A stretch of DNA of 9,160 nt from a bacterium (lineage in GTDB: Bacteria; Blakebacterota; Blakebacteria; Blakebacterales; Blakebacteraceae): contig JALGWK010000040.1 of assembly GCA_025774205.1 (NCBI GenBank), positions 1 through 9,160 of the forward strand, given 5' to 3'. Under the pieces are notes generated by a model. It did no database searches, was not told the origin of the DNA, and was given only the letters and a program-made list of their open reading frames with translations. The translations under genes and the position numbers were made by a program. Shown here one piece after another: positions 1 through 9,160 of the stretch (positions within the stretch are counted from its first letter, which is position 1; every line of letters begins with the position of its first letter).

Positions 1-494
1 GTCCATCCCTCCGGGAGCGGGAACCGGAAGGTGAGACCGGGGTGGTTGAACCAGCCGTCACGGACAAAGCCCTGTCGGGGATCAGCCCCGTAGACGAGAC
101 CTTCGATCAGCTGCAGGTAATCCTCCTGGTTCACCAGAAGGGTGGCGTGCTCAACCTTCCCCCGCCACTCTTCGGCAAGTTCCCGGACCGATTCGACTCT
201 CTTCTCAGGCGCGGGATGAGTTGATAACCAGTCGGGCAGTCCACCGCCGCTCTTCGGGCGCATCCGTTCCAGGGTAGCGAAGAAATTCGCCATCTCACCC
301 GCGGCCCATCCCCCGGTGGTGGCGTACTCGATCCCGAGACGATCCGCCTCCCGCTCGTTATCCCGGCTGAAGCTCAGCATGAGCTGCCGTTTCCCCGTGA
401 CGGGATTCACGGCGCAGGCCGTCGCGACCGCTGCGGAGATCAGCAGGAACAGAACGATCGCATGAATGCGCCGGATGGATGAGAGTCTACTCAT
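1..494 (-). CDS. M48-type metalloprotease lipoprotein lacking its HExxH core; 3' end cut by the window edge
   Basis: The frame is open from an ATG at 494 to the left edge (164 residues). A GGCGAGG Shine-Dalgarno (501-507) lies six bases upstream of the ATG, and the gap to the preceding SDR stop is 16 bases. Residues 1-27 are basic and then hydrophobic, ending in VATAC, an acceptable lipobox, so Cys27 may be lipidated. NPVTGKRQLML (30-40) is the usual N-terminal signature of periplasmic M48 lipoproteins of the BepA/LoiP kind. It runs directly into SFSRDNEREADRLG (41-54), which in intact members lies well after HExxH and carries the third zinc ligand (Glu47 of ExxAD). The later family blocks LPDWLSTHP (86-94) and VYGADPRQGF (134-143) follow in order. 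The segment with HExxH, well over 100 residues in known members, is absent with no frameshift. The product should not be an active peptidase. It could be a decaying gene, a non-catalytic variant or an assembly collapse. Family assignment is firm; status is not. Confidence 0.82.
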   Translation of the reverse strand, partial: MSRLSSIRRIHAIVLFLLISAAVATACAVNPVTGKRQLMLSFSRDNEREADRLGIEYATTGGWAAGEMANFFATLERMRPKSGGGLPDWLSTHPAPEKRVESVRELAEEWRGKVEHATLLVNQEDYLQLIEGLVYGADPRQGFVRDGWFNHPGLTFRFPLPEGW

Positions 495-510: not shown

Positions 511-1266
511 TCAGCCCTGGCTGGCCAGACCGCCGGCGATCTCACCGCCGTCGATCACGAACGACTGCCCCGTGATGAACGACGCCTCCTCCGAAGCCAG
601 GAACGCGAAGAGGGCGGCCACTTCCTCAGGCGTGCCGAGACGTTCCAGAGGGAGTTTGGATGAGTAAGCGGTCTTCATCTCGGGGGTGTACTCGGCATCC
701 TGCATCGGTGTCAGGATGAATCCGGGACAGACCGCGTTGACGCGTATCGCCGGACCGAGTTCGAGGGCCATCGAGCGGGTGAGTTCCACCACTCCGGCCT
801 TCGAGGCGTTGTAGTCGGCATAGTGGTGATACCCGGTCATCGCGTTGGTGGAACCCATATTCACGATCACTCCGCCCTCACCGGTGAGCATCAGTTCCGC
901 CGCGCCTCTGCCGACCAGGAAAATCCCGTTCAGGTTCACGTCGATGACCCGGCGCCACTCCTCGGGGGTGATCTCCATGAAAGGATGCCGGATGCTGATA
1001 CCGGCGTTGTTGATGAGGATGTCGAGTCCTCCCAGCATCCCCTGTGCCTCGCCGAATGCTCTCGCGACCTCATCGGGCTCGGTGACATCGGCGCTGATGA
1101 GGCCGGCGAGGCCGGCGATCTCCCCGGCGGCGCGGTTCAGCGCCTCCTCTTCCCGGTCCCAGATGACGACCTGCGCGCCCTCCTCAAGGAAACGTCGGGC
1201 AGTCGCCGCGCCGATACCGCCGGCGCCGCCCGTGATGACCATTCTCTTGTTGAACAATCCCTTCAT
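511..1266 (-). CDS. Classical short-chain dehydrogenase/reductase (SDR), NAD-type
   Basis: A 251-residue Rossmann-fold oxidoreductase of ordinary SDR length. Visible motifs are the cofactor glycine motif TGGAGGIG (12-19); Asp37 at the end of the second beta strand (VVIWDRE), which favours NAD(H) over NADP(H); the adenine-contact Asp60 (ADV); NNAG (86-89); Asn111; and the catalytic Ser139, Tyr152 and Lys156 (YNASK). PG (181-182) and the C-terminal ITGQSFVIDGG complete the fold. The start at 1266 is preferred over an in-frame ATG at 1314 because GAGGAG lies six bases upstream and the protein then begins just before the first beta strand. It lies 54 bases after the M64 peptidase stop. The substrate cannot be read from sequence. 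Its position in a sugar and amino-acid salvage run suggests oxidation or reduction of a sugar, polyol or hydroxy acid, but this is inference. Confidence 0.93.
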   Translation of the reverse strand: MKGLFNKRMVITGGAGGIGAATARRFLEEGAQVVIWDREEEALNRAAGEIAGLAGLISADVTEPDEVARAFGEAQGMLGGLDILINNAGISIRHPFMEITPEEWRRVIDVNLNGIFLVGRGAAELMLTGEGGVIVNMGSTNAMTGYHHYADYNASKAGVVELTRSMALELGPAIRVNAVCPGFILTPMQDAEYTPEMKTAYSSKLPLERLGTPEEVAALFAFLASEEASFITGQSFVIDGGEIAGGLASQG

Positions 1267-1272
1267 GTACCA

Positions 1273-1320: not shown

Positions 1321-2817
1321 TCATCCAGCAGGCGACAATCCGCGATAGTACCTGATCATGCAGAGCACCGCGTCCCGGCAGACGACGCAGAGGGTCCTGT
1401 TTTCAGATGAGTTCCGGAACATGAGGCAGTCCCGCATCGGCCGATAGAGTCCGGAGGTGGAATATCCGGCACCCTCGTAGGCCCCGACCGCCGCGCTCTC
1501 CGGAAGGCCGGTCAGGATCTCCTCTCTCCGATCCCCAAGTTCCTGTACTGCCTGCTCCATCTCGTCCTCAACCCGTTTGATCGCTTCCTCCGAGGCGCCC
1601 TCCTGCCGCAGCCGATCCACCCTCGCCCGCGCCTCCTGTCGGAGTTCACGCTGCCGGGCCGGGATGCCTTCGTACTCCTCTTTATCCCATGGCGTGGGGA
1701 GGGGGGTACCCGGTTCGACCAGGTGACGCCACTTCAGCCGATCGGGATCGAGCAGGGCGGTGATGTTCGGTTCGGCAGGTTCGATCCCGGCCGGATAGAA
1801 CTCGTTGTAAGCGACGGTTGAAGTGTAGTACTCGTCGGCCAGACCGGCGAAGGAATGCCCGAATTCATGCAGGAATACGTGCCCGCTCAGTTCGTCGTCG
1901 ACCGTTGATATGGCATAGAGGTTGTAGATCCCGCCACCGCCGTATCGCTCGGAATTCACCATGATCACGATGGCGTCACAGGGAACATTCCCGGCGATGT
2001 CGCGAAGGGTCCGGTTGTCTTCGGTCAGCAGGTACCGGGGCAGTCCCAGGGCATTGAATCCGGAGTTGACCGCGGTGCGCCGCCAGAGTCCCCTGGTGGG
2101 CTCATCGACGCCGCTCTCGGCAGAAGCCCGGAAAACCCCGTAGATGTTGAAATGCTCACGATTCGACTGGTACGGCTCCTCGCTGAACATGATCTCGATC
2201 CACCTCTCGAGATCGTTAACCGCCTTCGCGCGTTCATGCTCGGCGTATCCTTCGGCGATGAAGGCGATATCGACACAATCGTGGGGATCGCCACTCCGCA
2301 GCATCTCGATCGTGTCCACCCGCTCAGCGGGTGGCTCCCGGATGACACCGACACCTCCCGGATCGATTGTCGAGCTGAAGATCTCGCGGAAGGAGTTGTC
2401 CCGTTCACGAACTTCGAGGGTAAAATGAATCGGTTGTTTCGGGCAGGGGAGGAGGGCCGACTCGTGATAGGTGCGCGGAATGCCTGCCGCGGCCGGATCG
2501 GTCGTCTGGTACTCGCCGAAGTAACTGTTGAACCCTCTCGAAAAGAGAAGTTCTCCCGAGGCCTCGTCGCTGACCCTGATGAAATAGCGTCCGTTGTCGA
2601 AGGGATCGATCAGGTTGGTGAGACTGCCCGCCCACGTTCCCCGGACGTAGACCTGGTCGAGAGAGACCACTTCGTTCACGGCATCCCCGGTATGGAAATA
2701 ATCGATCCGCATGGTCTCATCGGTGAACCAGCGCTCGAATCCGTTACTCTGCCGCGCCTGCGAGGCCGCCGGAGTGAGCAGGAGCACAGCGATCGTCGCG
2801 GTGATGACAGGTCTCAT
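1321..2817 (-). CDS. Secreted M64-family zinc metallopeptidase
   Basis: The product has 498 residues. The N-terminus MRPVITATIAVLLLTPAASQA is a clear Sec signal peptide, with likely cleavage after about residue 21, so it acts outside the cytoplasm. The zinc site HEFGHSFAGLADE (317-329) matches HExxHxxxGxxDE of peptidase family M64 (IgA-peptidase-like): His317, Glu318 and His321, with Asp328 or a neighbour as the likely further ligand. GGGGIYNLY (293-301) just before it and a Cys-rich C-terminus (Cys464, 477, 480, 486) also fit the family. Residues 120-240 hold an M64-type domain (DIAFIAEGY). Between the zinc site and the Cys cluster lies a highly charged Arg/Glu stretch (about 388-435) that looks like a helical coiled-coil insertion. 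AGAGGA (2828-2833) gives a Shine-Dalgarno ten bases from the ATG, and the start is 16 bases after the kinase stop, so it should be co-transcribed. Family members are secreted proteases of mostly unknown specificity. The IgA label comes from one studied enzyme and need not apply here. Confidence 0.9.
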   Translation of the reverse strand: MRPVITATIAVLLLTPAASQARQSNGFERWFTDETMRIDYFHTGDAVNEVVSLDQVYVRGTWAGSLTNLIDPFDNGRYFIRVSDEASGELLFSRGFNSYFGEYQTTDPAAAGIPRTYHESALLPCPKQPIHFTLEVRERDNSFREIFSSTIDPGGVGVIREPPAERVDTIEMLRSGDPHDCVDIAFIAEGYAEHERAKAVNDLERWIEIMFSEEPYQSNREHFNIYGVFRASAESGVDEPTRGLWRRTAVNSGFNALGLPRYLLTEDNRTLRDIAGNVPCDAIVIMVNSERYGGGGIYNLYAISTVDDELSGHVFLHEFGHSFAGLADEYYTSTVAYNEFYPAGIEPAEPNITALLDPDRLKWRHLVEPGTPLPTPWDKEEYEGIPARQRELRQEARARVDRLRQEGASEEAIKRVEDEMEQAVQELGDRREEILTGLPESAAVGAYEGAGYSTSGLYRPMRDCLMFRNSSENRTLCVVCRDAVLCMIRYYRGLSPAG

Positions 2818-2833
2818 GGTCTGAGGATCCTCT

Positions 2834-4150
2834 TCATTCGATTGAGCGCGCCAGGGCCGGACCGGAGGGTCGCATGATCAGGGTCGTGCTGCCCGCCGCC
2901 TCAGCCGGAAAGGTCCGCCGGTACGATCCGATCCAGGTCCCTGCGAAGTCCTCGGCAGACGACTCCGGTACCAGGGCCCAGACACTGCCGCCGAAGCCCG
3001 CGCCGAAGGCCGACGAGGCCAGCGCCCCCTCCTCCCGGGCCAGACGCTGCAGCGCGTCAGTCTGGGGTATCTGGTTCTCGAGTCCCCTGGCGGCACCCTG
3101 ATGAGAGGCGTCCGCGAGTATCCCGAGTTTCTCCACGGCTCCCGTGCGGAACGCCTCGGCGGCGCCCGGCACATATTCCATCTCCTCATGGTAGAACTGT
3201 TCGAATCGGGTTGAAAGCCGCATGTCCCGGAGCCGGTCATCATCGCGTTCGGCGGCCGTCAGCATCCCGGACACCTCCGTCAAACCGGTACGGACCGCGT
3301 ATTCAGCACAGTCCAGGAGGTTATCAAGATCCGCTCCGCTGACCTCGCTCAGAATCCGGATGATCGCTGCCGCCCTGCGCGAGGCGCGGTTGTAAGAGTT
3401 GAGGGCGTCGCCCGTCTTCTCGGCCGATACTCCGGAGGTGGCGACCACCAGGCGTAGGGTATCGTCCCAGGTGAGGCGTTCCATCAGACGGATCGGAGCG
3501 TACCGGAAGAGTCCGAGACGGCCTGGCTGTGAACAGAGCATGGCGGTGTGGTCCTCGCTGCCGCCGAAGGTGCCGACTCCCGTTTCGCCGTCCAGCGTCT
3601 GGAAAGAAGCTCCGTTTTCAACGCTGCCGAGGTACTCCGCCAGGGTTTCATCGGAGGTGATGTTCTCCCGCCACGGTTCCGTCTCTTCGAGCCGGTTGAG
3701 TCGCGCCAGGACAAGGAAGGTTGCCACCATGAAGGCGCTGCTGCTGCTCATGCCGTCGGCCCGCGGAAGATCGCTCTGGAAAGCGATATCGGCCCCTTTG
3801 AGGCCGGTACTCTCCCCGAAGTTGAGGGCGATCCGGCGCGCGGTGGTAGCGGGATAGTTCAGCCAGTGTCCCGGCGGAAGAGTCGGGGAATCCCCCTGTA
3901 TAAATGAGCCGGCGTCGGCGGGGGAGTCGGCCGGGATCATCCTGATGACGGCATCGTCGCGCGGCCTGGCCGCCATCCGGAAACCACGGTCGGTCGCGGC
4001 AACAATGCTGCTTCCGCCGGCGTAGTCGGTGTGCTTGCCGAAGAGTTCGATCCGGCCCGGCACGAACGACTCGACCGTGGCCGGCTTGTCGCCTGAACTC
4101 TCCAGGGTTTCATGGCAGGCCTGCAGGAGGGGGTCGTCGTGCCGGTTCAT
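2834..4150 (-). CDS. Galactokinase-like GHMP sugar kinase
   Basis: A 438-residue kinase with the GHMP motifs in order. The galactokinase-type sugar motif GRIELFGKHTDYAGG is at 32-46. The ATP-binding loop LPRADGMSSSSAF is at 128-140. GGSEDHTA (197-203) supplies Asp200 where galactokinases have the catalytic Asp of MDQ. The C-terminal glycine motif GAGFGGS is at 383-389. Length and layout fit galactokinases, which phosphorylate the anomeric carbon of a sugar using ATP. However, the motif departs from the classical GRxNLIGEHTDYN: Lys39 replaces the Glu that contacts the sugar in known galactokinases, and Glu35 replaces the Asn. The substrate may therefore differ, for example a pentose or a uronic acid. 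Its ATG overlaps the stop of the upstream nucleotidyltransferase by four bases (ATGA), so the two are translationally coupled and probably act in sequence on one sugar. It acts in the cytoplasm. Confidence is high for a GHMP sugar-1-kinase and low for the exact substrate. Confidence 0.9.
   Translation of the reverse strand: MNRHDDPLLQACHETLESSGDKPATVESFVPGRIELFGKHTDYAGGSSIVAATDRGFRMAARPRDDAVIRMIPADSPADAGSFIQGDSPTLPPGHWLNYPATTARRIALNFGESTGLKGADIAFQSDLPRADGMSSSSAFMVATFLVLARLNRLEETEPWRENITSDETLAEYLGSVENGASFQTLDGETGVGTFGGSEDHTAMLCSQPGRLGLFRYAPIRLMERLTWDDTLRLVVATSGVSAEKTGDALNSYNRASRRAAAIIRILSEVSGADLDNLLDCAEYAVRTGLTEVSGMLTAAERDDDRLRDMRLSTRFEQFYHEEMEYVPGAAEAFRTGAVEKLGILADASHQGAARGLENQIPQTDALQRLAREEGALASSAFGAGFGGSVWALVPESSAEDFAGTWIGSYRRTFPAEAAGSTTLIMRPSGPALARSIE
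4147..4150 (-). other. ATGA stop/start overlap coupling nucleotidyltransferase and kinase
   Basis: The minus strand reads ATGA: TGA (4149-4147) ends the nucleotidyltransferase and ATG (4150-4148) starts the GHMP kinase. This arrangement normally allows re-initiation by the same ribosome and tends to keep the two proteins in matched amounts. Confidence 0.85.
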
Positions 4151-5004
4151 GGCATGATGGTCGGGAGTGAGATCGGAATGGCGCGCGTCATCTCCTCGAC
4201 CGCGGTCACATCGTGGATGCTTGTCAGGTCATACACCGGGAGCGAGAAGCGGGCAGTCCTCAGGCAGCATCCGACATCGGTCATAAGGTGGAGCGCTGCC
4301 GAGGGAAGCTCATACTCCTCCCTGACCGGATGGGGAGGGATCACCCGGCAGGCATCGTAGATCTCAGGCCCGAAGTGCCACGAATTCATCGAGATCGCGG
4401 CGGTACTGTCAAAGGTAGCCGATTCCTCCCGTCCCGGTTTCTCGATCATCCGCGTCAGGCAGCCCTCCTCATCTGTCTCGACGAGTGACATGTCGGCCAG
4501 CCGTTCCGGGGGGATGTTACCCCGGAGCAGTCCTTCGCGATCGAACAGGGTCAGGGCAGGCGGGGGCATCTCCTTCAGGGTCCGGAGGGTCTCGACGGGG
4601 TAGAGGTTGTCACAGTTGACGATCACGAACGGTTCTTCGCCGGTGAACGTCTCGGCCGAGAGGAGAGCGTGGGCTGTACCAAGGGGTTCATCCTGGATCG
4701 CGAACACCAGTTCCGCTTCCGTCAGGGCCTCCGCCAGGGCCTCGTAGTAATCCCAGAGCCGGTTCCGGGCAGCCGAGATGACCAGGCAGATGTCATCGAG
4801 TCCCGCGTCGATCAGATACTGGATCACATAATCGATGAAAGGGCGATCGTGGAACCGGATCAATCCTTTCAGGCCTTCCCGCGCGGCCTCGCGGTTCTCA
4901 GGATCGATCAGGTCGGGATCACCGCGGCGCATCCGTGAACCGGCGCCGGCAGCCAGTATTACCGCTTTACGGGTCGAACGGGACTCATGCTGACTGCTGG
5001 ACAT
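4147..5004 (-). CDS. Sugar-1-phosphate nucleotidyltransferase (NTP_transferase family)
   Basis: A 285-residue single-domain cytoplasmic enzyme. LAAGAGSRMR (17-26) is the nucleotide-binding GxGxR loop. A charged insertion of about 18 residues precedes the conserved Lys46 (GLKGLI). QDEPLGTAHAL (104-114) is the base and sugar-phosphate loop of glucose-1-phosphate nucleotidyltransferases. VNCDN contains Asp132, the expected Mg2+ ligand. EKPG (188-191) and EYELPSA (230-236) match downstream substrate-site blocks. No left-handed beta-helix acyltransferase domain follows, unlike GlmU. The start at 5004 is chosen because AGAAGG lies six bases upstream; ATGs at 5010 and 5022 lie on or before that site. 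The gene overlaps the symporter end by 20 bases and the kinase start by four. It probably converts the sugar-1-phosphate made by that kinase, plus an NTP, into an NDP-sugar. The nucleotide and sugar cannot be told from the sequence. Confidence 0.9.
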   Translation of the reverse strand: MSSSQHESRSTRKAVILAAGAGSRMRRGDPDLIDPENREAAREGLKGLIRFHDRPFIDYVIQYLIDAGLDDICLVISAARNRLWDYYEALAEALTEAELVFAIQDEPLGTAHALLSAETFTGEEPFVIVNCDNLYPVETLRTLKEMPPPALTLFDREGLLRGNIPPERLADMSLVETDEEGCLTRMIEKPGREESATFDSTAAISMNSWHFGPEIYDACRVIPPHPVREEYELPSAALHLMTDVGCCLRTARFSLPVYDLTSIHDVTAVEEMTRAIPISLPTIMP

Positions 5005-6790
5005 CGACATCCTTCTCCTCACCGGTGAATCCCAGGCCGGGCAGCAGTTTCAGCAGGAACCAGGCCGAGACGAGAAAGAGAGTGGTGCAGATGATGGCCA
5101 GCAGGGTCTTTCCGTAGAGGAAGAAGCCGGTCCCGAAGAGGGCCGAGTAGACGGTCGCTATGCCCAGGAACCAGCCGAGGAAGGACGCGGTCAACGTCTC
5201 TCCACTAGCTTTGACATCGCTGGTGTCCACTGCCTTCTTCCAGCCCGGCCCGAGCGGGCGGATCCGGTCGTAGAACGACTGGAGCGTTTCCCGGCTGGCC
5301 GGCCGGGTGAGCAGCATGACCGTGAACCAGCCGGCAGTGGTGATGCCAACCCCGAGCACCAGGCGCATCGAGGGATGTATCTCGGCGAATCCGAGGGTGC
5401 CATGCAGGAATTCGAAATAGATCGCCACCAGGAATGAGATGACCATCGCGGCGATCTCTGCCCAGGCATTGATCCTCCACCAGAACCATCGGAGCAGGAA
5501 AATCAGACCGGTTCCGGCCCCGATCTGCAGCAGGATGCGGAAGGCCTGCAGGGCATTCTCCAGCCAGAGGGAGACCACCGAGGCTATGACGATGAGGAGG
5601 ACGGTCGAGATCCTGGCTACCAGTACATAGTGGCGATCCCCCCTGTCACGGGAGATGAAGCGCCGGTAGAAATCGTCGACGATGTATGATGAGCCCCAGT
5701 TCAGGTGGGTGCTGATGGTACTCATATAGGCGGCAGCGAGGGAGGCAATCGCCAGTCCGAGCAATCCGTGAGGCAGGAAGACGAGCATGGCGGGATAGGC
5801 CAGATCGTGACCGATGATGCTCGGGTCGAGGTCGGGGAACGCCGCCTGGATCGAGTCGAGGGTCGGGTAGACCAGGAGGGAGCAGAGCGCGACCAGTATC
5901 CACGGCCATGGACGGAGCGCGTAGTGGGCCACGTTGAACCAGAGGGTGGAGAGCATCGACTCTTTTTCATTTCTGGCAGCGAGCATTCTCTGGGCTACAT
6001 ACCCCCCGCCACCCGGTTCAGCTCCGGGGTACCAGGTGCTCCACCATTGCACCGCGATCGGCACAATGAAGACAGGCAGGAGGGTGTGCCAGTCGGTGAA
6101 ATCGGGCAGGAAGTTCAGCTTTCCCGCGAGTTGGGGACTGGAGATGAGTCCGCTCAACCCGCCGACGGCAGGCTGCTGCAGAGCGAAGATGGCCGCCGCG
6201 ACCGATCCAATCATCGCGATGACGAACAGGAGAAGGTCGGTAACGACTACTCCCCACAGGCCGCTGGAGGCTGAATAGATCGCCGTAACGGTGGCGCAGA
6301 CCACCACTGTGGTGTACTTGTCGACGCCGAGCAGAACCCCGGAGATCTTGATGGCCGCCATGGTGACCGTGGCCATGATCATGACGTTGAAGAACACTCC
6401 GAGGTAAATGGAACGGAATCCTCGGAGGAACGCCGCCGGGCGGCCGCTGTAGCGCAGCTCATAGAAGCCCATGTCGGTAAGGGCACCCAATCGTCTCCAC
6501 AATTTCGCGTAGAAGAAGACGGTGCACATGCCGGTGATCAGGTAGGCCCACCAGATCCAGTTGCCGCTGACACCGCCCGTGCGGACGATATCGGTCACGA
6601 GATTCGGCGTGTCGGTGGAGAAGGTGGTGGCCACCATCGAGGTGCCGAGCAGCCACCAGGGGAGTTTCCTGCCGGAAAGGAAGAACTCGTCCACTCCCCG
6701 TCCGGCCCGCTTGATGAAGTAGAGGCCTACGCCCAGGGCCAGCACCGCGTACCCTGCCATGACCGCCCAGTCGATTCCCGCTAACCGCAT
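4985..6790 (-). CDS. Sodium:solute symporter (SSS family) membrane transporter
   Basis: A 601-residue polytopic inner-membrane protein with about 13-14 hydrophobic segments, beginning at 9-27 and ending with a pair near 536-582. The first helix and re-entrant motif read SGRKLPWWLLGTSMVATTFS (39-58), a hallmark of the LeuT-fold SSS family (PutP, SGLT). PGAEPGGGGYVAQRMLAARN (255-274) corresponds to the family's central signature loop. AAAYMSTISTHLNWGSSYIVDDF (352-374 region) is the helix that carries the Na2-site Ser/Thr residues. A long hydrophilic loop occupies about 497-535. The start is supported by GGGAAGG (6801-6807) ten bases upstream, and the gap from the serine dehydratase stop is 42 bases. 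The family couples Na+ entry to uptake of sugars, proline or other small solutes. Neighbours allow either a sugar (kinase and nucleotidyltransferase immediately downstream) or an imino/amino acid (dehydratases upstream). The tight overlap with the sugar genes makes a sugar somewhat more likely. Confidence 0.93.
   Translation of the reverse strand: MRLAGIDWAVMAGYAVLALGVGLYFIKRAGRGVDEFFLSGRKLPWWLLGTSMVATTFSTDTPNLVTDIVRTGGVSGNWIWWAYLITGMCTVFFYAKLWRRLGALTDMGFYELRYSGRPAAFLRGFRSIYLGVFFNVMIMATVTMAAIKISGVLLGVDKYTTVVVCATVTAIYSASSGLWGVVVTDLLLFVIAMIGSVAAAIFALQQPAVGGLSGLISSPQLAGKLNFLPDFTDWHTLLPVFIVPIAVQWWSTWYPGAEPGGGGYVAQRMLAARNEKESMLSTLWFNVAHYALRPWPWILVALCSLLVYPTLDSIQAAFPDLDPSIIGHDLAYPAMLVFLPHGLLGLAIASLAAAYMSTISTHLNWGSSYIVDDFYRRFISRDRGDRHYVLVARISTVLLIVIASVVSLWLENALQAFRILLQIGAGTGLIFLLRWFWWRINAWAEIAAMVISFLVAIYFEFLHGTLGFAEIHPSMRLVLGVGITTAGWFTVMLLTRPASRETLQSFYDRIRPLGPGWKKAVDTSDVKASGETLTASFLGWFLGIATVYSALFGTGFFLYGKTLLAIICTTLFLVSAWFLLKLLPGLGFTGEEKDVDVQQSA
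5011..5020 (-). promoter_or_regulatory. Shine-Dalgarno of the nucleotidyltransferase, inside the symporter coding end
   Basis: The minus strand reads GAGGAGAAGG here, within the last codons of the symporter (EEKD). It points to ATG 5004, six bases away, rather than ATG 5010, which abuts it, or ATG 5022, which precedes it. Translation of the two genes is therefore likely coupled. Confidence 0.7.
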
Positions 6791-6832
6791 CTGCCGTTAT
6801 CCTTCCCTTCCAGTCCGTCGTGATGGAGGCGT

Positions 6833-8392
6833 TCAGCGGAGACGCTTCAGCTCCTTTGCGGAGGGTGCGAGAGCAAGTCCGCCGAGCGCTGTGCACCGCA
6901 GCTCCGGAGGCAGTCTCCGGCCCGTATCGTACACTGCGTCGATGGTCTCATCGAGGGGAATGGGATTGCTGTAGCCGCCCATGACGAGGTCGGCACAGAC
7001 GAACGCGCTCGAGGCAGCGGTGGCGTTCCTGGTGTGACAGGGGATCTCCACCATACCCTGGACCAGGTCACAGACCGAGCCCATGGAGTTCTGATAGGAG
7101 ATGGCCGCGGCGTCGACCGCGTGCCGGGCGGTTCCGCCGCTCACCTCCACGACCGCCGCTGCCGCCATGGCGCCGGCGGCACCGATCTCGACCTGGCAGC
7201 CTGCTACCTCCGCCGCGAAGGTGGCCCGCTCTGCCGTGATGACTCCGATGGCACCGGCCGCCATCAGAGCCAGGCTGGCCGCTTCAGTATCAAGATCCAG
7301 CTCTTCCCTGAGGGTGGTGATGACCGCGGGTATGACCCCGGCCGAGCCGGCCGTCGGAGCGGCGCAGACCACCCCCATCCCGGCATTCACATGCATCACC
7401 GCCATCGCCCGGGCCGCGGCCCGCGTGTGGAGGCCACCGATCGGCAGGGAACCGTCCGCTTCAGCCGTGATGATGCTTCCCGCTGACGGATGGAGGAGCT
7501 GCATGGCGGGCAGATCGTTCGCCAGTCCAACGATGACGGCCTCCTCCATGATACGGAGTCGATCGGCCGCCTCGGCCAGCACGTCCCCGATCGGCAGGCC
7601 CAGAAGTACCGCTTCGTATTCGAGGGCGATGGTTCCCAGGGAAATCCCGCGCTCGGTCGCCATGTTCACCATGCCGGCCGCGTCATCGAAGAGCGGTATA
7701 CCCCGCTGGACGAAGAAGATCGGTTCGATTGTCCAGACATCCTGCACCGTAGAGGTCGAACGGAGTCGTTCTTCCGCTTCTTCCGGCAGGGGAGCGAGGC
7801 GCCGGCAGTGCAGCAGGGTCAGGCCTTCCCGTGAGATCTGTTCGATCTCGACGGTCTCGTTCTCATCAGGTGAAAGCTGTGCCAGTGTCTTACTGATCTC
7901 CTTGCCGGAGGTTACCACCAGCACATCGTGGTAGCGGCCGGTTATCAGGAGCGGCCAGCCATTCACCCTGGTGATCTCGACCGATCCTCCACCGGTGGAG
8001 ACCGCGGTCACGTTCAGCTCACGGCCTTCGCTGTCGACGATCCCGATCGAGACGGTGTTCGGATGCTCAGCGTCCGGGAGCCGTTCCATGAGGAAACTCG
8101 CCGCCAGACCATTCTCCGTGGCGAGGTCGAGCATGGCGGAGAACCGCTCGTCGGTGATCCCGGCGCCGAGCAGGCCGGCCAGGAAGGCCAGGTCCGCGCC
8201 CTGTTCCCGGTAGACATTGCCCCACGAACCGGCGGGATCGAACGTGAACCGCGCTGCAACCGGCGGGGCGTCAAGCATGGAGGAGAGGAGACGGCCGATG
8301 TGATAGGCTCCGGCCGTATGGGAACTTGACGGCCCGCGCATGACGGGGCCGATGACATGGTTCAGTATGCTGATTCGGTTATTCGCTGTCAG
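6833..8392 (-). CDS. sdaA: Iron-sulfur L-serine dehydratase, single-chain (beta-alpha fusion)
   Basis: Deaminates L-serine to pyruvate and ammonia using a [4Fe-4S] cluster, in the cytoplasm. Counting from the first ATG at 8341, the 502 residues hold a beta-type domain with GPSSSHTAGA (3-12), an ACT-like stretch STGGGSVEITRVNGWPLL (115-132), a linker (170-205), and an alpha-type domain with APTAGSAGVIPAV (328-340) and GCQVEIGAAGAMA (381-393). Cys382, Cys424 and Cys435 have the 42 and 11 residue spacing of the cluster ligands in structurally known serine dehydratases. Cys483 may serve as the extra cysteine seen near the C-terminus of the family. The family block before the SSSHT motif, read here as SILNHVIGPVM, lies upstream of that ATG in the same open frame, which has no ATG, GTG or TTG before a stop. 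I therefore place the start at CTG 8392, which overlaps the preceding TGA as CTGA. The conservative start is 8341. Function is well supported; the start is not settled. Confidence 0.9.
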   Translation of the reverse strand: MTANNRISILNHVIGPVMRGPSSSHTAGAYHIGRLLSSMLDAPPVAARFTFDPAGSWGNVYREQGADLAFLAGLLGAGITDERFSAMLDLATENGLAASFLMERLPDAEHPNTVSIGIVDSEGRELNVTAVSTGGGSVEITRVNGWPLLITGRYHDVLVVTSGKEISKTLAQLSPDENETVEIEQISREGLTLLHCRRLAPLPEEAEERLRSTSTVQDVWTIEPIFFVQRGIPLFDDAAGMVNMATERGISLGTIALEYEAVLLGLPIGDVLAEAADRLRIMEEAVIVGLANDLPAMQLLHPSAGSIITAEADGSLPIGGLHTRAAARAMAVMHVNAGMGVVCAAPTAGSAGVIPAVITTLREELDLDTEAASLALMAAGAIGVITAERATFAAEVAGCQVEIGAAGAMAAAAVVEVSGGTARHAVDAAAISYQNSMGSVCDLVQGMVEIPCHTRNATAASSAFVCADLVMGGYSNPIPLDETIDAVYDTGRRLPPELRCTALGGLALAPSAKELKRLR

Positions 8393-9160
8393 CCGCCGTA
8401 GGATCGGTGTTCAGTGCGGGCGATGATCTCGTCCTGGAGGACCTTCCCCAGGTCACAGAAATAATCACTGTAACCGGCGACACGGACGATCAGGTCCCGG
8501 AAATCCTCCGGACGTTCCTGGGCTTCCTTCAGCATTTCCGAATCGACCACGTTGAACTGGATATGATGGCCGTCCATCCGGAAGTACGACCTGACCAGGT
8601 CGACGAAGCGGTCGAGTCCGTTCTCGCCTTCGAGCAGATGGGGGGTCAGTTTCTGGTTGAGCAGGGTGCCGCCGGTGCGTTCGTGGTCCATCTTGCCGAC
8701 CGACTTCAGAACCGCGGTGGGGCCTAATCGGTCGGCCCCCTGGACCGGGGAGACCCCCTCGGATAGCGGCCGACCTGCCCGCCGCCCATCGGCGCTGGCG
8801 CCGCAGACCGAACCGAAGTAGATGTGGCAGGTGGTCGGCAGCAGGTTGATGTGGTAGCGGCCGCCGCGGGTGTTCGGGCGTCCTTCGATGGCCTGGTAGT
8901 AGATCTCGAAGAGCCGGCGCATGACCTCGTCGGCATAGTCGTCATCGTTGCCGTACTTCGGGGTCTTCTCGGTGAGGAGATGCCGCATCCGCTCGTGATC
9001 CTCGAAATCGCCGGAGATGGCCTCCAGCAGTTCACTGATCGGGATATCTTCCTGGTCGAAGACGTGGTATTTCACGGCCGTGAAGGAGTCGGTCAGGGTG
9101 CCGAGACCGACACCCTGGATATAGGAGGTGTTGTAGCGCGCTCCGCCCGCGTGATAGTCG
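8389..9160 (-). CDS. hypD: Glycyl radical enzyme, trans-4-hydroxy-L-proline dehydratase-like, C-terminal part
   Basis: The frame is open to the right edge, so only the last 256 residues are visible; the GTG at 9075 is internal. The first visible residues, GGARYNTSYIQGVGLGTLTD (5-24), and later blocks KTPKYGNDDDYAD (65-77), LLPTTCHIYFG (106-116), KMDHERTGGTLLNQ (156-169) and MDGHHIQFNV (195-204) follow the C-terminal half of glycyl radical enzymes. DLIVRVAGYSDYF (222-234) carries the radical Gly229 (codon 8475-8473). As I recall the characterised Clostridioides difficile hydroxyproline dehydratase, nearly all these blocks match it closely, more so than choline, glycerol or pyruvate enzymes. 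That enzyme removes water from trans-4-hydroxy-L-proline to give pyrroline-5-carboxylate. The active-site Cys and substrate residues lie outside the window, so specificity is inferred. The enzyme is oxygen-sensitive and needs a radical-SAM activase, which is not seen here. The symbol is the dehydratase hypD, not the hydrogenase maturation gene. Confidence 0.88.
   Translation of the reverse strand, partial: DYHAGGARYNTSYIQGVGLGTLTDSFTAVKYHVFDQEDIPISELLEAISGDFEDHERMRHLLTEKTPKYGNDDDYADEVMRRLFEIYYQAIEGRPNTRGGRYHINLLPTTCHIYFGSVCGASADGRRAGRPLSEGVSPVQGADRLGPTAVLKSVGKMDHERTGGTLLNQKLTPHLLEGENGLDRFVDLVRSYFRMDGHHIQFNVVDSEMLKEAQERPEDFRDLIVRVAGYSDYFCDLGKVLQDEIIARTEHRSYGG

Follow-up and report, generated by a model that had tools for sequence, protein, structure and literature searches.

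Hydroxyproline is a major component of animal matrix and algal cell walls, yet the gene sets by which sediment anaerobes channel it out of glycoproteins and into central metabolism have been poorly described. Among the systems closest to the locus reported herein is the trans-4-hydroxy-L-proline dehydratase (HypD) of C. difficile with its activase (6vxc, 6vxe; PMC7077986). The structural study tied residues F152, R156, H160, W277, D278, K326 and S334, and further D339, F340, C434, E436, Y450 and T645, to hydroxyproline or to the radical (PMC7077986). In Bacteroides thetaiotaomicron, BT4240-50 encodes an O-glycoprotein peptidase, a GH109 enzyme, an inner-membrane sugar transporter and a sugar kinase that act together on N-acetylgalactosamine (GalNAc) glycoprotein (PMC11992087). 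For the Latescibacteria, hydroxyproline-rich and GalNAc glycoproteins were inferred to be the food of sediment anaerobes, GH109 being present (PMC4454575); that proposal was drawn from whole-genome gene content and mentions neither such an operon nor a glycyl radical enzyme. HypD, M64 peptidases, GH109-based GalNAc scavenging (PMC11992087) and the idea that sediment anaerobes use hydroxyproline-rich glycoproteins (PMC4454575) are, then, already known. In the open-licence literature we found no published operon joining M64, a glycyl radical enzyme and hydroxyproline, nor any published linkage of HypD, aminopeptidase P and M64.

The locus resembles the C. difficile system in the score of the sister-species HypD, which exceeds the family cut-off, in 14 active-site residues and in the adjacent activase. 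It differs in that HypD shares its operon here with a sugar block and the gene of a secreted peptidase, and in that pyrroline-5-carboxylate (P5C) dehydrogenase is present in these genomes and P5C reductase was not found. Its likeness to BT4240-50 (PMC11992087) is functional only, comprising a peptidase, a sugar transporter and a kinase, with GH109 linked to the sugar block in other genomes. BT4240-50 has an M60-like peptidase, a phosphotransferase-family kinase and SusC/D, whereas this locus has an M64 peptidase, a GHMP kinase and a nucleotidyltransferase, adds hydroxyproline and serine breakdown, and is without GH109 or SusC/D. No M60-like glycopeptidase, SusC/D or phosphotransferase-family GalNAc kinase was found by Pfam in the window. 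We put at roughly 0.5 the probability that this is one operon for the anaerobic use of a hydroxyproline-containing glycoprotein, in which two modules are joined by a shared substrate; an uncultured bacterium may in this way exploit such material for its protein as well as its sugar.

Layout of the locus and of its sister

The window, the whole stretch of DNA analysed, is an entire 9160-base contig (C113) of a genome of 3.09 Mb in 527 contigs (85.9% complete). Because it ends with the contig, an earlier interpretation made from these letters (the sequence-only reading) had no view upstream. As that reading had described, all the listed genes lie on the minus strand and form, read from the right end, one co-directional run in which neighbouring genes overlap or lie close together. 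The order is the C-terminus of a glycyl radical enzyme, an L-serine dehydratase, an SSS-family symporter, a nucleotidyltransferase, a kinase, an M64 peptidase, a short-chain dehydrogenase/reductase (SDR) and an M48 peptidase, the last two extending the run. Read in this direction, successive genes are separated by 47, 42, -38, -4, 16, 51 and 16 bp. The predicted SDR (511..1269, minus strand; PF13561, 230 bits) is found at the same place in the sister with 80% identity, and the M48 metallopeptidase (3..494, minus strand; PF01435 and NF052400, BepA-like), cut here by the contig end, is a protein of 493 aa there (L023:13655-15136).

The single congener available (G001) carries the same eight genes in identical order, with nearly equal gaps of 47, 85, -38, -4, 7, 55 and 16 bp. 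A gene order kept in no relative had been named beforehand as what would count against the operon; in the sister both order and gaps are kept, at protein identities of 69-93% across the operon. The sister locus (L023, public record JALGVQ010000010.1, the same locus as in G001 and also indexed as L092) continues upstream, where a glycyl radical activase overlaps a complete HypD. Conservation of the whole gene order stops at the genus; in other genomes the two halves occur apart.

Hydroxyproline, serine and the M64 peptidase

The piece of glycyl radical enzyme (8389..9159, minus strand), open at the contig end, comprises the C-terminal 256 aa. It matched positions 532-783 of the NCBIfam profile glycl_HYPD with 434 bits, and its best PDB match was HypD (6vxc); being cut, it cannot reach the whole-protein cut-off of 1100. 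The rest of the enzyme, its N-terminal two thirds, is missing from the assembly of this genome. The piece shares 87.5% identity with the HypD of the sister, which is complete (793 aa) and scored 1277 bits against that curated cut-off. With the radical glycine (G765 in C. difficile HypD numbering), assigned by alignment, the residues of the structural study make a set of 14, and 14 of the 14 are kept in the sister enzyme; they include the substrate residues D278, D339, S334, F340, Y450, T645 and H160 as well as Cys434, Glu436 and the radical Gly765. The window piece covers T645 and G765 and keeps both. Directly upstream in the sister, the radical-SAM activase gene (L023:2425-3360) overlaps that of HypD by 23 bp; its best family is T4HPD_activ_SAM (358 bits, below the cut-off of 425). 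The hydroxyproline-dehydratase identity first proposed from the letters was thus upheld by the sister's score and all 14 residues, and the two checks named for it, an active site compatible with hydroxyproline and an activase upstream, both came out in its favour in the sister genome. From its family and active site, the enzyme is predicted to be a HypD that dehydrates trans-4-hydroxy-L-proline.

P5C reductase had been expected as the next step. This was rejected, as ProC (TIGR00112) gave no match in the four genomes of the family, the same search having found it in 14 of 14 control genomes. Each of the four has P5C dehydrogenase instead, encoded on another contig than the operon; in two genomes the protein scores above the cut-off, and in the other two it is truncated at a contig end. 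Since the reductase was not found and the dehydrogenase is present, the simplest route probably runs from hydroxyproline through P5C to glutamate; the absence of ProC is good but not final evidence, because the four genomes are 63-86% complete. As a separate observation, with the dehydrogenase present and no reductase found in G000-G003, the lineage may lack the usual step of proline synthesis.

The adjoining gene (6833..8392, minus strand) encodes a predicted Fe-S L-serine dehydratase with fused beta and alpha parts (TIGR00718, 204 bits, and TIGR00719, 107 bits, both below cut-off). PF03313 scored above its cut-off and PF03315 just under; the best PDB match was the L-serine dehydratase 4rqo, with which the three cluster cysteines, in the motifs GCQ and CDxVxGMVEIPC, were aligned. 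Its first ATG lies at 8341, and on the minus strand between 8341 and 8392 no ATG, GTG or TTG stands ahead of the conserved GPVMRGPSSSHT. The candidate start in this interval is a CTG at 8392; in either species it overlaps the stop codon of HypD, the two forming CTGA. This CTG is probably the start, because it is in frame and the N-terminus then resembles that of the homologue in G002, a genome of another genus of the same family (MNAVSIFNDVIGPVMRGPSSSHT).

At the other end of the sugar block lies a predicted secreted metallopeptidase of family M64, the IgA peptidase family (1321..2817, minus strand; PF09471, 282 bits, and PF16217; PDB 3p1v and 4df9). It has a hydrophobic, signal-like N-terminus and the HExxH zinc motif as HEFGHSFAGLADE at 317. 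The association of such peptidases with HypD recurs in another phylum, where HypD is common (39/82 genomes) and M64 occurs about once per genome (62/81). In five genomes of that phylum (G047, G392, G400, G401 and G449), genes for M24/aminopeptidase P and M64 follow HypD within a few kb, the cluster of G047 also having a POT-family peptide transporter; G403 is a probable sixth, its aminopeptidase P being split over two contig ends, beside HypD on one and M64 on the other. Both genes occur in 35 genomes, among which chance would place them within 10 kb of each other 0.16 times; five such cases were observed (P ~8e-7). This value treats genomes as independent, although relatives are so only in part; the linked genomes, five in number, represent four families. 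In a tree of 33 M64 proteins, the window and sister peptidases fell in a clade with 100/100 support together with eight others, all of the other phylum: the five linked to HypD, that of G403, and two from genomes that also have HypD. None of the 22 M64s outside this clade is linked to HypD. Given the clade and this pattern of linkage, the window peptidase is assigned by sequence to a HypD-associated lineage of M64, and the recurrence backs the earlier pairing of peptide cleavage with hydroxyproline use. HypD, aminopeptidase P and this M64 clade form a conserved linkage that can be tested beyond the genus.

The sugar block and its linkage to GH109

The symporter (4985..6790, minus strand; PF00474, TIGR00813) is a vSGLT-like SSS Na+/solute symporter and a probable sugar importer, its best PDB matches being sodium/sugar cotransporters. 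It is followed by a predicted sugar-1-phosphate nucleotidyltransferase (4147..5022, minus strand; PF00483; AglF, 81 bits, below cut-off; PDB YngB), for which the nearest model and structure, AglF and YngB, are UTP-glucose-1-phosphate uridylyltransferases. The third gene (2834..4150, minus strand; PF10509, PF00288, PF08544) encodes a predicted GHMP sugar 1-kinase related to galactokinases, with galactokinase and GalNAc kinase as best PDB matches. Kinase and nucleotidyltransferase score below every curated cut-off. The kinase, at 99 bits with TIGR00131 (cut-off 227), falls short of the galactokinase (GalK) score, and in the alignment it has K39, in GKHTDYAGG, where galactokinases have the Glu of GEHTDY. 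In G002 the kinase motif (L094, L093) is GNHTDYAGG, with Asn at the Lys39 site, so that Lys is not universal at this position. Because the score is below cut-off and Lys or Asn replaces Glu, the enzyme is, on sequence grounds, galactokinase-related and not a standard GalK. In galactokinase structures the residue at this site touches the distal side of the sugar. The invariance of Lys39 in 48 kinases was discounted, as FGKHTDYA was among the search patterns; in kinases found free of this bias the residue is Lys in G334 and Asn in G002.

Salvage routes that pair a sugar 1-kinase with a nucleotidyltransferase include AmgK-MurU and fucokinase/GDP-fucose pyrophosphorylase. As in these, an anomeric kinase followed by a nucleotidyltransferase would yield a nucleotide sugar; the window kinase differs from theirs in subfamily. 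The proposed sugar activation agrees with the two enzymes, and breakdown of the sugar seems less likely: the pair looks like, and is probably, salvage into a nucleotide sugar.

The three genes occur as a block in Acidobacteriota and Gemmatimonadota; in Actinobacteria and archaea the block is reduced to its last two genes. Relatives of the symporter that are 52-63% identical adjoin the nucleotidyltransferase, the kinase and GH109, the alpha-N-acetylgalactosaminidase family. Neighbours were identified by direct tblastn, which replaced an all-ORF clustering of the relatives (antisense ORFs in G+C-rich genomes). Of 59 loci collected by means of peptide patterns, about 17 have a GH109 gene adjoining the kinase block, nearly always co-directional. 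A further search, free of this bias, covered 386 genomes. Outside the window's family it yielded two kinases (G334 and G204), each in a contiguous run of GH109, symporter, nucleotidyltransferase and kinase. The linked GH109 proteins have a Tat-type, twin-arginine signal (RRDFL or RREFL), and their best PDB matches are 6t2b, a solved GH109, and 2ixa, an alpha-N-acetylgalactosaminidase. Most economically, in these loci GH109 would free GalNAc outside the cell, the symporter would import it, and the kinase and nucleotidyltransferase would turn it into a nucleotide sugar. The association of this exported GH109 with the symporter, the nucleotidyltransferase and the unassigned galactokinase-like kinase is a second linkage testable beyond the genus, and either conserved linkage would assign a function to proteins named today by family alone. 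Within the window, no GH109 or other glycosidase accompanies the block. In the window's own family, G001 and G002 carry GH109 on contigs that do not hold the block, and none was found in G000. The G001 gene lies near two sulfatases (L145:6909-14806), as in sulfated glycan loci. In six loci, mostly of Acidobacteriota, the kinase is followed by a protein of about 695 aa without a Pfam match (L041:11303-13390, L029, L032, L034, L055, L057).

The sequence-only reading had assigned the operon to plant or green-algal hydroxyproline-rich glycoproteins, with the kinase and nucleotidyltransferase acting on arabinose, galactose or galacturonate. The kinase is indeed of the galactokinase family, and the Lys at its Glu site could suit a C6 carboxylate. 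Use of hydroxyproline-rich glycoproteins has also been proposed for sediment anaerobes from Latescibacteria gene content (PMC4454575). Against these points, the arabinofuranosidases and galactosidases that were to be looked for are absent among the identified neighbours of the block, where GH109 is the recurrent glycosidase, and we regard this version as unlikely. The linkage to GH109 makes a GalNAc-like sugar a likelier import than arabinose or galacturonate.

That the symporter instead carries hydroxyproline, proline or serine, in an operon for amino-acid uptake and fermentation with a stray kinase pair, is very improbable. HypD and serine dehydratase lie immediately upstream of it and the SSS family includes PutP, but the PutP model TIGR02121 gave only 61 bits (cut-off 515.5), the best solved relatives are sugar cotransporters, and across phyla the subfamily accompanies the nucleotidyltransferase, the kinase and GH109. 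The Na+ symporter of the earlier interpretation is present; as it travels with sugar genes and best matches sugar symporters, it is on this evidence no carrier of hydroxyproline or peptides and most likely serves sugar. Sugar specificity could not be read from the galactose-binding residues of vSGLT, and the attempt was dropped, as N64, Q69, E88, N260 and Q428 are not kept and N142 is. Between the two species the symporter shows 93% identity, compared with 69-88% for its neighbours. A recent shared transfer was rejected; the divergence at four-fold sites (0.42) is only slightly below that of the neighbours (0.47-0.60), which points to unusually strong selection as the simpler cause.

Proposed pathway and history of the operon

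In the favoured reading, a single glycoprotein-using operon, the secreted M64 would cut proline- and hydroxyproline-rich chains outside the cell, and the cleavage of the resulting peptides would be completed elsewhere after their uptake. The radical-SAM enzyme that adjoins HypD in the sister would activate it, and HypD would convert trans-4-hydroxyproline to P5C, from which the P5C dehydrogenase of the other contig would make glutamate, and serine dehydratase would convert serine to pyruvate and ammonia. The symporter would import a sugar freed from the same material, most likely GalNAc or a close galacto-sugar; judging from the conserved linkage to exported GH109, the kinase would form the sugar 1-phosphate, which the nucleotidyltransferase would convert into a nucleotide sugar that the cell itself uses. 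The activities, the common substrate and the identity of the sugar are deduced from the sequences. It is a tentative extension of this reading that the operon handles both peptide and glycan of an O-GalNAc-type glycoprotein, combining radical dehydration and serine deamination with a previously undescribed GalNAc salvage by a GHMP kinase and a uridylyltransferase.

The full gene combination is limited to two genomes of one genus, so no independent recurrence shows a shared substrate. Neither the sugar block nor serine dehydratase was present in other HypD neighbourhoods (about 50 examined). In G002, the block has a divergent serine dehydratase beside it, and HypD and M64 were found neither near it nor elsewhere in the genome, which is 72% complete. 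From this block without HypD or M64, we read the operon as what looks like an older unit of serine dehydratase and sugar genes around which HypD/activase and M64 were set. The same history would fit two unrelated functions on a shared transcript, the older block salvaging sugar for envelope synthesis and HypD-M64 having been added round it with no common substrate. The separation of the two modules everywhere outside the genus agrees with this, as do the archaeal and actinobacterial kinase and nucleotidyltransferase copies, which lie without a relative of the window's peptidase nearby. Yet in both species the block stands between HypD and M64 with conserved gaps, the GH109 linkage makes the block one for O-glycoprotein scavenging in many genomes, and G002, the supporting case, is incomplete; we consider this explanation possible but doubtful.

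With a shared glycoprotein as the favoured substrate, its possible sources are animal collagen or mucus and algal cell walls; GalNAc, if it is the sugar, would favour an animal-type O-glycoprotein. Upstream of the sister activase lies a hybrid histidine kinase gene (L023:109-2280), which may encode a regulator of the sister operon, and on the opposite strand a gene of the 3-keto-disaccharide hydrolase family.
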